Source of the DNA: Chloroflexota bacterium
GTDB taxonomy: Bacteria > Chloroflexota > Anaerolineae > Anaerolineales > UBA11579
NCBI GenBank assembly: GCA_019456165.1
Contig: VRUJ01000007.1
Span: 1-64,000, forward strand
DNA: 64,000 bases
Direction of reading: 5' to 3'
Below, piece after piece: positions 2,267 to 59,475 of this stretch (its first letter is position 1; every line of letters begins with the position of its first letter). A program made the position numbers and the translations under genes. Below the pieces are notes generated by a model, which saw only the letters and a list, made by a program, of their open reading frames with translations, ran no database searches and had not been told where the DNA came from.

Positions 2267-3334
2267 ATGGCTACCCAAGAAACTGAACGCACACAAACAG
2301 TTAAAAACTTTGAGACCAACGCGGGTGCGCGTATTTTTCAGATTCCTATGGAAGCCTTCCCATCCTTTTGGGTTTATACCTATCTGGTGCTGGTGGATGA
2401 CTACCGGGTTTTGATAGACACCGGCTCAAACTTCCGCAATTCTAACGAAGACCTGGAAAACGGTTTAAAGTCCATCAGTAAGCAGATTGGTGAGAGCATA
2501 GGTTTTAATGAGTTAACCCACGTCTTCATCACCCACGGGCACATAGATCATTTTGGCGGACTGGCTTACGTCAAACCGCGCACACAGGCAAAAATTGGCA
2601 TCCACTCATTAGACCGCCGCAACTTGACGAACTATGAAGAGCGCTTGGTTGTGGTTTCAAAGCGTATGGACAATTATTTTATGGGATCCGGCGTAAAACC
2701 TGAGAGGGTGCAGAAATTACGCGACCTATATATGTTATCTAAAGCCCTCTACAGTTCTGTGGAGGTGGATTTCACATACGATGAAGAGGGTATGGAAATC
2801 GGGCCGTTCAAGATGCTGCACGTCCCCGGACATACCGCGGGTATTGTCGTAATACGTCTGCATGACATTTTGTTCAGCGCAGATCACGTTATTAGCGGGA
2901 TCAGCCCCCATCAAGCGCCCGAGAGTTTGACTTTGAACACAGGACTGGGGCATTACCTGGATTCATTGATCGCCGTGCGCGAATGGGCTGCGGACGTGCG
3001 TCTCACTCTGGGCAGCCATAAAAAGCCGATAGATGATCTACCTGCTCGTGTCGACGAAATTCGGGGGGAACACGCTAAACGCTTATCCAAGGTGATGGAA
3101 TATTTGGCAGAGCCTCACACCATAGCCGAGGTATCCCAAGATTTGTTCGGTGAAGTTAGCGGATATAACGTATTGTTGGCTTTAGAAGAAGCCGGGGCGC
3201 ACGTGGAATATCTTTACCAGCGTGGCTTATTGGGTATTGATAATCTCCAAGAAATTGGTGAGAGCGAGAAAATTATCCCCATTCGTTATTTGCGATTGGG
3301 AGAAGGGAACGATATTACGAAGTTGCTACCTTGA
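2267..3334 (+). CDS. Metallo-beta-lactamase fold hydrolase
   Basis: A 355-residue cytosolic MBL-fold protein. The metal-binding signature H90-x-H92-x-D94-H95 (THGHIDHFGG) is intact, with later ligands in HVPGHTAGIVV and SADHV. The C-terminal 90 residues (after SHKKPIDDLPARVDEI) look like the winged-helix-like tail of LACTB2-type proteins. In this operon it is likely a thioesterase or glyoxalase-II-like hydrolase acting on acyl-CoA or another thioester, but the substrate cannot be read from sequence. It is co-transcribed with the TetR gene before it and the acyl-CoA dehydrogenase 15 bases after it. Confidence 0.85.
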   Translation: MATQETERTQTVKNFETNAGARIFQIPMEAFPSFWVYTYLVLVDDYRVLIDTGSNFRNSNEDLENGLKSISKQIGESIGFNELTHVFITHGHIDHFGGLAYVKPRTQAKIGIHSLDRRNLTNYEERLVVVSKRMDNYFMGSGVKPERVQKLRDLYMLSKALYSSVEVDFTYDEEGMEIGPFKMLHVPGHTAGIVVIRLHDILFSADHVISGISPHQAPESLTLNTGLGHYLDSLIAVREWAADVRLTLGSHKKPIDDLPARVDEIRGEHAKRLSKVMEYLAEPHTIAEVSQDLFGEVSGYNVLLALEEAGAHVEYLYQRGLLGIDNLQEIGESEKIIPIRYLRLGEGNDITKLLP

Positions 3335-38617: not shown

Positions 38618-38647
38618 AAAACCGCAGCTAGATAGCTGCGGTTTTTT
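38618..38647. terminator. Bidirectional terminator between the oxoamine synthase gene and ssrA
   Basis: AAAACCGCAGCT pairs with AGCTGCGGTTTT around AGAT, with T-runs for the plus strand and A-rich flanks that give U-runs on the minus strand. It ends both the plus-strand synthase gene and tmRNA. Confidence 0.9.
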
Positions 38648-38648
38648 G

Positions 38649-39044
38649 TGGAGATGGCGGGAATCGAACCCGCGTCCGCAAGATTAAGCATCCGAATATC
38701 TACGAGCGTAGTTGCTTGTTTGTTATCATCGTTTGGCCCACAACCAACAAAGGATTCAAACGAATAGCCGCTGGGGCCCGAAGGCCCCTCTTAAGTGCGT
38801 TTAGCGGCGTACCGCACAGCACTCCAGCATTGTGTCGCCGGTTCCTTCACCAGCCGGAGCATGGGGAAGGAGGGCGCGACCCGCTTAGGGGGTCGATACT
38901 GATCTATCTAATTGCTTACGCAGCTAGAGGGAGAGCAGCATAGTCAGTGCGTTCGGCACTTAAATTGTGCGCTGGTTTAACGAGATCGGCGCCTCTCGGC
39001 TCGCAATTCGGGGCCAGCCTCTTCCGTCGAAGCCAGTCATCCCC
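38649..39044 (-). ncRNA. ssrA: Transfer-messenger RNA (tmRNA)
   Basis: On the minus strand the RNA begins GGGGATGACTGGCTTCGACGG and ends with a T-arm GCGGGTTCGATTCCCGC and CATCTCCA. The 5' GGGGATG and 3' CATCTCC form the acceptor stem with one G-U pair. CCA is not encoded. The tag reading frame lies at 38957-38916: GCC start, encoding AERTDYAALPLAA and TAA stop, with the usual hydrophobic LAA-type degradation signal. tmRNA frees stalled ribosomes together with SmpB, which is also encoded here. Length is about 396 bases. Confidence 0.95.
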
Positions 39045-50937: not shown

Positions 50938-52026
50938 ATGATAATTGAACCTAAAATTTTCTTGATATTAAGTTTTGCAGTAGTCATCTCAAACTGTGGA
51001 ATCGCGGATGGTCTTGTTGATGAGCAGAGCGATGCTTCCACGGAAAATAACCCTGAAACAAACCTGCAAACCCCCACGTTGTTGGGTGATACTGCTCCTG
51101 GGGAAACCACGCCTGGAAGCGCGACTCCAGTCCCGACTAATGCAAGGGTTGAAGATCCCAACGAATACAATTTTCCATTTTTGATACCTTTTGATGGCAT
51201 TCGCCCAATCTACGATCCGGAATTCGTTAGCGCTGATCAATCCCCCTTGATCGATGAAGAATTAATTATTGGCGTTGCCTGGGGTGGAGAGGCTAAAGCG
51301 TATCCCATCACCGTCCTGCGTTTCCGTGAGATGGTGGATGATGAGCTGGCGGGTATTCCAACCCTGGTAACGTGGTGACCACTTTGCTACACCGGTCTCG
51401 TGCATGACCGGCGCATAGATGGTGAAACGCAAGTGTTTGGTAACGCGGGGGCGCTCTTCATGAATGCCATGACCTGGTATGACCACGCAACAGAATCGAT
51501 CTGGTCTCAACCTTGGGGACGTGCAATTCAGGGAGAAATGAAGGGAGTGCAATTGCACCTACTTCCCTCACAAGTTACTACTTGGGCGGCCTGGAAGACA
51601 GAACATCCGGAAACCCTGGTGATGACAAACGATGTAGATAAGGTAAGTTTTAGACAGGGGTTTAACGAAGACTTTGTTATTGGACTGCTGCTGGATGGCT
51701 ACAGTAAGGCCTATTATTATTTAGATGTGCAGGAAGTAGTTGTGGTCAATGATATGTTAGGGGATATTCCGGTTGTTATCTGGGCTGCAGATAATAATTT
51801 TCACGCATTCGTCAGGCAGGTTGGGGATATGGTTTTAACTTTCGATCCCGTAGATGGTGGATTAAAAGATAGGGAAACGGGTACAATATGGAATGTAGCT
51901 TTGGGAATCGGGATGGCAGGATCGCTAGAAGGCGAGTTTCTCCTGCCTGTGCCCAGTACATCATCTTACGACTGGGCTTGGTTTGATTTTTATCCTGAAG
52001 CAGAATTCTATACTCCGGAAGGTTAA
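50938..52026 (+). CDS. DUF3179 selenoprotein lipoprotein (TGA decoded as Sec147)
   Basis: A 362-residue protein if TGA at 51376-51378 is read as selenocysteine. N-terminal hydrophobic signal with a lipobox-like ISNC at Cys20, then a Thr/Pro-rich linker. The DUF3179 core follows: IGVAWGGEAKAYPI, then VTW-U-PLCYTGLVHDRR, then RQGFNEDFVIGLLLDG. Relatives of this family have VTYCPLCGTG at this place, so the TGA sits exactly at the first Cys of a CxxC. Without readthrough only 146 residues would be made, yet the frame continues uninterrupted for 215 codons with full homology. A SECIS-like hairpin follows. ATG 50938 is chosen over TTG 50917. The deiodinase-like selenoprotein gene is 12 bases downstream. 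Confidence 0.85.
51392..51411 (+). promoter_or_regulatory. SECIS-like hairpin of the first DUF3179 gene
   Basis: CCGGTC (51392-51397) pairs with GACCGG (51406-51411) around TCGTGCAT. The loop begins 20 bases after the TGA, in the 16-37 base window known for bacterial SECIS elements. The paralogue at 59015-59033 has a different stem but the same loop form. Confidence 0.7.
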
Positions 52027-52038
52027 ACCAGGAATATT

Positions 52039-52740
52039 ATGAACGATGCTGATTTGATTGCGCGCTACAACTATGATGAATTTGTCCCTGAAAAGTTTGG
52101 CCCTTGGATGAGGTTTGGGGAAAGTCCCCCGCTGGGTGAACCGGCCCCGGATTTCCACTTATGGGATTTGGAAGAAAAAGAGACATCATTAAAGGAGATC
52201 TGGTCTCAAAGCAAATATACAGTCGTCGAATTTGGCAGCTTTACTTGACCATATTGCGGGATGGCGGCGCCGTCCATGAATACAATCGCGGAGAAATATG
52301 CCGATCAGGGGGTTGGCTCGATTTTTCTTTACACCCACGAGGCACATCCTGGTGAGATTTATCCACATCACACTTCTATGGAACAAAAACATCAATTTGC
52401 GCGTGATTTACGAGATATCTTAGGTGTCACCCGTCCAATTTTCTTGGATGTTCTTGATGGGGTATGTCACCGCGCTTACGGCTCAATGCCTAACATGACC
52501 TGGGTTTTCAACCGCAGCGGTATACCGGTATATAAAAGCGATTGGACGGATGTGAACAGTGTTGAACAGGCGTTAGAATATTTTATAGATGTTGCCAGGC
52601 GGCGCAGGGATGGGCAGCGCTTGGCTCCATTTCATGCAGAACGTCTGGATTACCGTGAGCAAGACCGGGAGGCATTCTACAAAGGGTTAGAGCGCAATGG
52701 GCCAAAAGCGGTGACAGAATTTAAGGAAGCGTTTGGGTAA
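52039..52740 (+). CDS. Deiodinase-like selenoprotein (TGA decoded as Sec70)
   Basis: A 233-residue thioredoxin-fold protein when TGA 52246-52248 is read as Sec. The redox site is EFGSFT-U-PYCGMAAP, a U-x-x-C motif at residues 70-73. It resembles the SCTUPPF site of iodothyronine deiodinases, and TTHEAHPGEIYPHH-like THEAHPGEIYPHHTS matches their EAHP region. The frame continues cleanly after the TGA for 163 codons. No signal peptide is present, so it is cytosolic. A GC hairpin follows at SECIS distance. It directly follows the DUF3179 selenoprotein gene (12 bases), which suggests the pair is co-expressed. The physiological substrate is unknown; hormone deiodination is not implied. Confidence 0.85.
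52259..52275 (+). promoter_or_regulatory. SECIS-like hairpin of the deiodinase-like gene
   Basis: GGATGGC (52259-52265) pairs with GCCGTCC (52269-52275), with one G-U pair and GGC as the apical loop, 18 bases after the TGA. The G-rich loop and distance fit bacterial SECIS elements. Confidence 0.65.
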
Positions 52741-57802: not shown

Positions 57803-58225
57803 ATGGAAATCACAGCACGAAGCGTGGAAAATTTTCAAGTCGAAATTCTGTCTGGCAAGCATACTTTTTTTGCTGATGAGCCTGTATCTGTTGGCGGTGA
57901 TGACAGTGGGCCAGACCCTTATGGATTACTGCTCGGATCTTTGGCAGCTTGTAAGATCATAACTGTGCAGATGTATGCGCTTAGAAAAGGCTGGCCTCTA
58001 ACGGGGGTTGATGTAAGCGTGAGCACCAAAAAGGTGCATGCAAAAGATTGTGAAGATTGTGAAAGCGACCCAAATGCACGAGTGGATATCATCGATACGG
58101 AGATCAAATTCCATGGGGACTTGGATTCTGAGCAGTTGGAGCGGTTGAAAGACATATCCACCAATTGCCCAGTTCACCGTACGTTAACTAGTGAAACAAA
58201 AATATATACGAAAATGATCCTCTGA
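57803..58225 (+). CDS. OsmC/Ohr family peroxide-reducing protein
   Basis: A 140-residue OsmC-fold thiol peroxidase. The two Cys are in LAACKIITVQMYALRK (residue 51) and NCPVHRTL (near residue 126). GPDPYGLLLGSLAACK is a family signature. It would reduce organic hydroperoxides with a thiol cofactor. Extra cysteines in KDCEDCESD near residue 85 are unusual and may bind a metal. AAAGGAG stands 8 bases before ATG 57803. It is followed by a very strong terminator. Confidence 0.9.
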   Translation: MEITARSVENFQVEILSGKHTFFADEPVSVGGDDSGPDPYGLLLGSLAACKIITVQMYALRKGWPLTGVDVSVSTKKVHAKDCEDCESDPNARVDIIDTEIKFHGDLDSEQLERLKDISTNCPVHRTLTSETKIYTKMIL

Positions 58226-58329: not shown

Positions 58330-59475
58330 TCAGTTTTCCAGCCCGTAAACTTCTGTCTCTGGGAACCAATCTGACCAACCGAACCAGAAGATTCCAGTGC
58401 TTTTGAGCCGGGTCAGAGTTTCACCCGCCAGTGGTCCATCGATGGCTGTTCCAGTGAGACCATCCCATGTTGAACCAGTTTGGTCATCAGTTATTGTCAA
58501 ATCAGAAACGATTGAGAAAGTGAGAGTTTCGCCGTTGAGATTGCGATCGAATACAACTCCGGTACTTGTAAAATAATTGAAAACAACTAGCACGCTCGTA
58601 TCGGCGATTAAGTCATTTACGATTGGTTCATCATTCAACACGCTGAAAGGATAAGCGGTGGCCTGACCATCTATTTCTACACCAATTACGAATTCTTTAA
58701 CATACAATAAATTATTACGTACCGCTTCTCCAATTACGCCAGCTGAGTCGGATTCGTAATACCCAGCATAAGGATCACGAAAACCTGAGTAGCCTTTACG
58801 CAGGGCTAAGGTATCAGGATGTTGTGTTTTCCAATCCTCCCAGGTGGTTTGCCAGGAAGGTAAATATTCAAGTTCGCTGCCCGCCAAGGGGCCTTCCACG
58901 GCTCGACCAAGCAACTGACTCCATAGGGAATTAGTCTGCCGATCGTACATCACAAGGATGTTCATGATCAGTTTACCGCTAACGCCAAAAGTATATTCTT
59001 CACCGTCAATTATTCGGGAATACACGATTCCCGTGTAGCAAAGCGGTCACCAAGTTACTGATAGTTTTACTCCGCCAACGGTATCATTTACAATTTCATG
59101 TCTGGATAACAATCCCGTAGAATAGGCCCTGGCCTCACCATTGAATACTATTCCAATGACTTGCTCATATGGGTCGTATTCCTGATCAGCTTCTTCAACT
59201 GAGTAATATTCTGGGTTATCAATCGCAGGAATCGCGTCTTGAGGCAGCAAAGTAATAATTCGATAGTTTTCAAGGGGATCCTCTACTGGGAGGGGAGTGT
59301 TGCTTGGATTAGAAGATTCTTCAGCCATTTCTTCTCCAGAAGATGATTGGGAACTCTGGTTTTGACCTTGCTGCCCTGTGGATGCTGTAGCATCGCTAGA
59401 AACCGAAGAGCAGGCAGTTAATAATAGGATGGTACCTGTGATGAGGATATATATCCGCAATTTTCGCGGGATCAT
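58330..59475 (-). CDS. DUF3179 selenoprotein lipoprotein, second copy (TGA decoded as Sec143)
   Basis: A 381-residue protein if TGA 59049-59047 is read as Sec. Signal and lipobox LLTAC put Cys22 at the surface, followed by a Ser/Gln-rich linker. The DUF3179 core reads IGIVFNGEARAYSTGLLSRH, then SVTW-U-PLCYTGIVYSRIIDG, then VGVEIDGQATAYPF. It is a paralogue of the protein at 50938: both have U-P-L-C-Y-T and the same layout. Readthrough is needed for 238 further codons. A perfect 7-base hairpin follows the TGA. An AAAGGAG precedes ATG 59475. Confidence 0.85.
59015..59033 (-). promoter_or_regulatory. SECIS-like hairpin of the second DUF3179 gene
   Basis: Minus strand: CGGGAAT pairs with ATTCCCG around CGTGT, 14 bases after the TGA. 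The stem bases differ from the paralogue's hairpin while pairing is kept, which is the pattern expected of a selected RNA structure. Confidence 0.7.

Follow-up and report, generated by a model that had tools for sequence, protein, structure and literature searches.

Genes and hairpins at the locus

Two DUF3179 (PF11376) genes lie in the window, which here means the whole stretch of 64,000 nucleotides that was analysed, and each has an in-frame TGA that was predicted to be a selenocysteine (Sec) codon (Table 1). The PF11376 profile, with a gathering score of 27 bits, gave 302.3 bits for the gene at 58330 and 197.3 bits for the gene at 50938. The frame of the 58330 gene is open through its single internal TGA (sequence context VTW-U-PLCY) and ends with a TGA at 58332-58330 that is immediately followed by TAA, and plain ORF calling splits the gene in two at the UGA. 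The initial annotation had placed the TGA at the same residue in both paralogues; its coordinates were right, and the two codons align within the common string VTW-U-PLCYTG. TGA is a normal stop in the window and ends 11 of the 32 long ORFs (at least 250 aa). An open frame across another TGA, at 3332-3334, was considered and rejected, and was found to be two ordinary genes in a shared frame with no selenoprotein. Residues 18-22 of the 58330 protein (LLTAC) form what we take to be a lipoprotein-type signal, the lipobox being picked out by eye.

Table 1 Positions of the DUF3179 genes, the deiodinase-like gene and their TGA codons and hairpins in the window
Feature	Position	Strand	Remarks
DUF3179 (PF11376) gene	58330..59475	-	382 codons including in-frame UGA and final TGA
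In-frame TGA, predicted Sec codon	59047..59049	-	codon 143 of 382, U of UxxC
Putative SECIS hairpin CGGGAAT-CGTGT-ATTCCCG, 7 bp	59015..59033	-	loop starts 20 nt after UGA
Apical loop C-GU-G-U	59022..59026	-	bases 1 and 4 covary (cross-loop pair)
Paralogous DUF3179 gene, type with His at +9	50938..52026	+	38% identical to 58330 protein
In-frame TGA of 50938 gene, predicted Sec codon	51376..51378	+	codon 147
Putative SECIS hairpin CCGGTC-TCGTGCAT-GACCGG	51392..51411	+	one-base register shift relative to 58330 hairpin
Deiodinase/redoxin-like gene	52039..52740	+	in-frame TGA at codon 70, GSFT-U-PYC
Hairpin GGATGGC-GGC-GCCGTCC after deiodinase-like TGA	52259..52275	+	by folding

The genome contains a third DUF3179 gene, L018 (G000:C24:2551-3423), with one TGA in the motif VTY-U-VVC. 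The stem after this TGA (GGGGTTG GTTT CAACCCT, 7 bp) differs from both stems in the window, and this divergent gene was left out of the main covariation set. The deiodinase/redoxin-like gene begins 12 bases past the 50938 gene, and the hairpin after its TGA was no better than dinucleotide shuffles (z 0.12). A TGA-bearing relative of this gene stands beside DUF3179 at locus L094, on the same strand and with a DUF3179 gene that also has TGA, and at locus L087, on the opposite strand and with a DUF3179 gene of the Cys type. A deiodinase-like stretch at L178:5142-5501, whose locus carries a DUF3179 gene of the Cys type, has TGA and TAA adjacent to each other before PPF. No neighbour was common to most of the 52 stretches compared, and among the neighbours looked for only selD (5 loci) and the deiodinase-like gene (3 genomes) recurred. 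selD was in the same fetched stretch at 5 of 72 TGA loci, namely L128, L136, L137, L138 and L151 (Marinimicrobia), versus 0 of 75 Cys loci, with two loci counted in both groups.

Two other genes of the window were noted. The gene adjoining the 58330 gene (57803-58225) looked OsmC-like by eye and is a Cys version, without in-frame TGA in its ORF; OsmC-like UxxT selenoproteins appear in passages of the same reviews as DUF3179 (PMC9312934, PMC13188914). The tmRNA gene at 38646-39044 (Rfam 147 bits, ARAGORN tag AERTDYAALPLAA) was the sole match at Rfam gathering level in the window.

Homologues, protein fold and selenocysteine machinery

The PF11376 family search matched 148 of the 396 genomes of the class. 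The top 20 matches of the 58330 protein in these 396 genomes came from 20 different genomes, with the query gene in first place, and every one of them had exactly one TGA. The 19 TGA genes after the query were 44-63% identical to the 58330 protein, and the next matches (37-44% identical) were mostly without an internal stop. A scan of named genomes used a query built from TGA proteins, and of the 585 stretches that it confirmed the best 80 were taken. Once duplicates and entries of insufficient sequence had been dropped, the set comprised 153 unique DUF3179 sites with 73 TGA, 52 TGC and 28 TGT codons (80 Cys) at one aligned column, a TGA share that is not the natural frequency because the scan query came from TGA proteins. 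Beyond Chloroflexota, TGA sites were found, going by record titles, in Poribacteria, Nitrospinota, Marinimicrobia, Eisenbacteria, 'Bacillota' and Anammoxibacter, of which single assignments may be wrong because most are metagenome bins. The archaeal loci of the set had Cys in 17 of 17 cases. Two TGA genes, L147 and L169, have UPLA, with the second Cys of the motif gone and the seven stem pairs intact with other bases.

The assembly is fragmented (63 contigs) and many of the relatives are metagenome-assembled, which would suit a TGA that is a sequencing error or the mark of a pseudogene. However, 73 unique sites from many genomes have TGA at one codon with the frame open beyond it, and each of the three DUF3179 genes found in the genome has a single TGA. 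This explanation is already contradicted and its probability is practically nil; the initial annotation had likewise argued against chance or a sequencing error.

The DUF3179 region is an internal duplication (58330-59265) whose second half has lost its CxxC, and a Rieske-like fold is predicted for each half. The predicted likeness to Rieske domains is one of fold only. DUF3179 does not conserve the CxH...CxxH ligands; the invariants of 60 and 68 aligned proteins included one Cys/Sec and no His. The similarity of the DUF3179 and Rieske profiles in hhalign was not significant, and no relative was found in the PDB by sequence profile. Because CPLC resembles the CPxH loop, we also considered whether the Sec site stands in for a Rieske ligand, and rejected this as unsupported, since hhalign left the two unaligned and there is no invariant His. 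UGA serves as stop and Sec codon at once, and some termination is therefore expected, as it would be if the UGA were mainly a selenium-dependent off switch with a 142-residue product as the usual one and the full length made only at plentiful selenium. But both TGA and Cys genes conserve what lies downstream of the UGA, the second homologous half with it, and we regard such a switch as highly unlikely.

The same genome contains SelB (347 bits), SelD (357 bits), SelA (536 bits) and tRNA-Sec (70.6 bits), all over cut-off, and ARAGORN called the tRNA as SeC with anticodon tca. Its SelD gene (L008, G000:C55:7816-8748) also has one in-frame TGA; a SECIS-like hairpin, AGCGC-GGAA-GCGCT, could be seen by eye after it. 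tRNA-Sec was over cut-off in 19 of the 22 other TGA genomes identified, and SelA was strong in 20 of 23 TGA genomes (own included). The gaps were G315 (78% complete) with neither SelA nor tRNA-Sec, G277 without a SelA match, G047 with a weak SelA match only, and G378 and G143 without a tRNA-Sec match. The presence of SelA was dropped as a discriminating test, since 315 of the 396 genomes of the class had SelA over cut-off, and because it is so common, SelA in the TGA genomes indicates consistency and not proof.

Pairing, covariation and codon choice after the TGA

The 58330 hairpin begins 13 bases after the UGA. Both stems described in the initial annotation (CGGGAAT/ATTCCCG and CCGGTC/GACCGG) are present, and in either gene the string CGTG starts 20 nt past the TGA; the stems had been said to be in the same place, but their registers differ, with a one-base shift of the second stem on its 3' side. 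Dinucleotide-shuffle folding gave z -1.47 for the 58330 hairpin and -2.05 for the 50938 hairpin, which is modest when taken alone. Because the hairpins sit in coding sequence, a synonymous-codon null was preferred, in which the protein was fixed and codons were drawn from the gene's own usage, and this gave z -3.41 (p 0.007) for 58330 and z -5.10 (0/400) for 50938. A family RNA model trained without the 50938 hairpin found this hairpin with 20.9 bits and E 7.6e-5 (20 kb), or E 0.0145 genome-wide. In the search of the own genome with the RNA model there were, beyond the two window genes, 16 weak matches, none above 18.5 bits, and the third DUF3179 gene and selD were not found. In E. coli fdhF the SECIS is a short helix whose apical loop exposes a GU; the 58330 hairpin would resemble it in helix and GU and differ from it in sequence and bulge.

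Published bSECIS rules, as set out in a section of PMC13188914, are a stem of 4-16 bp, a loop of 3-9 nt, 16-37 nt from UGA to loop, an MFE of -7.5 or lower and a G as first or second loop base. The hairpins of both genes were within the size, spacing and energy limits, with 7 bp, a 5 nt loop, 20 nt and -8.8 kcal/mol for 58330 and 6 bp, an 8 nt loop, 19 nt and -11.7 for 50938. The 58330 loop (CGTGT) has its G within the first two positions. The bSECISearch model, as far as it is described there, is also like the 58330 hairpin in having a stem-loop just past the UGA and, as second loop base, a G with U or G next to it on the 3' side. In the lowest-energy loop of the His-type paralogue (TCGTGCAT) the G is third, and the rule for the first two positions is broken unless the weak U22-A28 pair also forms.

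Were the UGA read as another amino acid, by a near-cognate tRNA or a UGA-reading tRNA-Cys, with the hairpin merely stimulating read-through, the DNA picture at a Cys column would be the same, as Sec and Cys are indistinguishable from sequence there. The genome, however, has tRNA-Sec (tca) together with SelA, SelB and SelD, 11 of 32 long ORFs in the window end at UGA in the usual way, and the 58330 hairpin fits the spacing, loop and energy rules quoted from PMC13188914. We therefore consider this decoding very unlikely and Sec the preferred reading.

The stem was then compared between TGA and Cys genes in three closely related registers, which had been picked after the first 32 TGA sequences had been viewed. 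Of the 73 TGA sites, 61 had a perfect stem in one of these registers and 71 had a stem of at least 6/7 (or 6/6), against 2 and 6, respectively, of the 80 Cys sites; 12 of the 73 TGA hairpins were imperfect in every register. Using a 27-nt window, 18 of 73 TGA hairpins were weaker than -7.5 kcal/mol and 16 of 80 Cys stretches reached -7.5. Loop position 2 was G in 73 of 73 TGA sites, but 76 of 80 Cys sites had the same base there, and the G is therefore uninformative alone.

Formal tests were made on the 60 TGA sites with Tyr or Phe at +9 (Y-type, 58 distinct), with the 12 His-type sequences and L018 excluded. In this set 96.1% of cells paired over 8 pairs, 6 pairs had double changes (56 cells), and the covariation score was matched by 0 of 500 shuffles; sliding the stem partner reduced pairing to 21-55%. 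The 80 Cys sites had 41.1% pairing and no covariation beyond shuffles. RNAalifold, given 60 TGA sequences and no structure, returned exactly this 7-bp stem, while with the first 20 sequences, and with 11, it returned tiny other structures and missed the stem. Fitch parsimony on the seven stem pairs indicated 13 pair-to-pair double changes (2, 1, 3, 5 and 2 on five pairs) and 28 one-sided changes, of which 7 preserve standard pairing and 21 lack it before or after the change.

A tree-aware null was built as our own version of the R-scape idea (it is not R-scape), with a tree from the proteins minus the hairpin-coding residues and Fitch changes re-thrown on this tree in 1000 simulations over 861 column pairs. 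The top four of the 861 pairs in the 60 TGA genes were three stem pairs and the cross-loop pair: pair 20-30 ranked first (E 0), ahead of the cross-loop pair 23-26 (E 0.013), pair 19-31 (E 0.05) and pair 17-33 (E 0.35), in this order. The cross-loop pair is not an independent prediction because it was added after the Fitch analysis had revealed its covariation. The remaining four pairs had E 10.8 and above and are uninformative because they vary too little. The sum over the eight pairs was 231.5 for the TGA set versus a simulated maximum of 69.3, and was reached by 0 of 1000 simulations; for the Cys set it was -19.9, reached by 923 of 1000, and none of the four top pairs was prominent. In the His-type clade (11 of 12 sequences, L175 excluded) no compensatory change was found in either register, and 9 of 12 sequences were perfectly paired in one register.

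The initial annotation had held that two independent stems argue strongly for a selected RNA signal. Such a signal was borne out by the wider set, but the two stems alone carry less weight than was stated, given their modest shuffle scores, the lack of compensatory change in the His-type clade and the failure of RNAalifold at 20 sequences. The test on which that claim had been staked, covariance in more homologues, strongly supported the pairing in the 60 TGA genes.

Codon choice followed the stem as well. The 25 TGA genes with Ser at +10 used TCC with Gly at +6 in 11 of 11 cases and AGC or AGT with Ala at +6 in 14 of 14, so every choice was the pairing one, and the three Cys genes with Ser at +10 all used TCN. 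The 14 AGY cases came from Poribacteria (12), Dehalococcoidia (one) and Anammoxibacter (one), and the independent events are far fewer than 14 because most are from Poribacteria. The serine codon switch follows the pairing demand, and the protein sequence does not require the choice. The third bases of Ile+7 and Val+8 in TGA genes were C-G in 46, U-A in 3, A-U in 1 and A-C in 2; among Cys genes, the 19 that have Ile-Val showed mixed combinations. The third base of Thr+5 and first base of Arg+11, counted in all TGA genes having both residues with the shifted register included, were less clean (G-C 43, U-A 5, C-C 12, C-A 2, U-C 1). Folding was better than the synonymous-codon null (p of 0.05 or less) in 52 of 73 TGA genes versus 8 of 80 Cys genes, and the paired fraction was 0.972 versus 0.694 under the null in TGA genes and 0.557 versus 0.528 in Cys genes.

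These results bear on the possibility that protein conservation and codon bias produce the pairing as a side effect, with no selected RNA structure. The hairpin does lie in a conserved protein stretch, its loop largely encodes Ile-Val-Tyr, the loop G is equally common in Cys genes and RNAalifold needed more than the first 20 sequences. But the strong pairing excess over the synonymous null in TGA genes only, the serine codon-class switch holding in 25 of 25 and the contrast of the two sets in the tree-aware sum already contradict it, and we find it extremely unlikely.

Predicted function and relation to known selenoproteins

DUF3179 is tabulated as a UxxC/T selenoprotein family in parts of two reviews (PMC9312934, PMC13188914), the first of which cites in that passage a paper of 2007 about the symbiont of Olavius algarvensis. 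Because the family was already listed, the 58330 gene is a member of a known selenoprotein family. The selenoproteins listed there have the same domain and motif, with Sec first in UxxC, as here; unlike in the reviews' passages on DUF3179, the hairpin has here been tested by covariation, and the genomes are Chloroflexota-type, Poribacteria and others. The initial annotation had called the 58330 gene the second DUF3179 selenoprotein without mentioning this listing; it does have a TGA-bearing paralogue, but the genome holds L018 as a further DUF3179 gene with TGA. In the open-licence literature, where besides the two reviews a paper on Idiomarina mentions DUF3179, we found no paper on covariation of the DUF3179 SECIS or on a Rieske-like selenoprotein. 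What is new is the covariation evidence, the predicted duplicated Rieske-like fold and the adjoining deiodinase-like TGA gene.

We conclude that the 58330 gene is very probably a selenoprotein gene whose UGA is decoded as Sec with the help of a bacterial SECIS, a prediction made from sequence. The Sec reading is likely because the paired bases of the hairpin changed together across 60 related genes. SelB would bind the covarying hairpin after the UGA and bring tRNA-Sec to it for decoding. The product would be an exported lipoprotein of two homologous halves with Rieske-like fold, and only the first half has U/C-x-x-C, which would act on some partner either as a redox pair (thiol/selenol) or in metal binding. 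A wider proposal, to which we give somewhat less than even confidence, is that one ancestral family-wide SECIS, with a 7-bp helix and an N1-GU-N2 mini-loop, extends across several phyla, dictates the serine codon class (TCC or AGY) and serves a Sec UxxC on a duplicated Rieske-like fold without iron-sulfur ligands, a scaffold other than the thioredoxin fold that is usual among selenoproteins.

As a passage of PMC13188914 notes, many bacterial SECIS elements resemble one another little, which makes them difficult to detect. The DUF3179 SECIS can be aligned over 60 genes, cross-loop pair included, and so yields a usable covariance model, and the set offers a clean system in which to study SelB recognition. 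For annotation, the gene matters as one that plain ORF calling breaks at its UGA. Simple evidence that an RNA structure constrains codons inside a protein gene comes from the serine codon switch.
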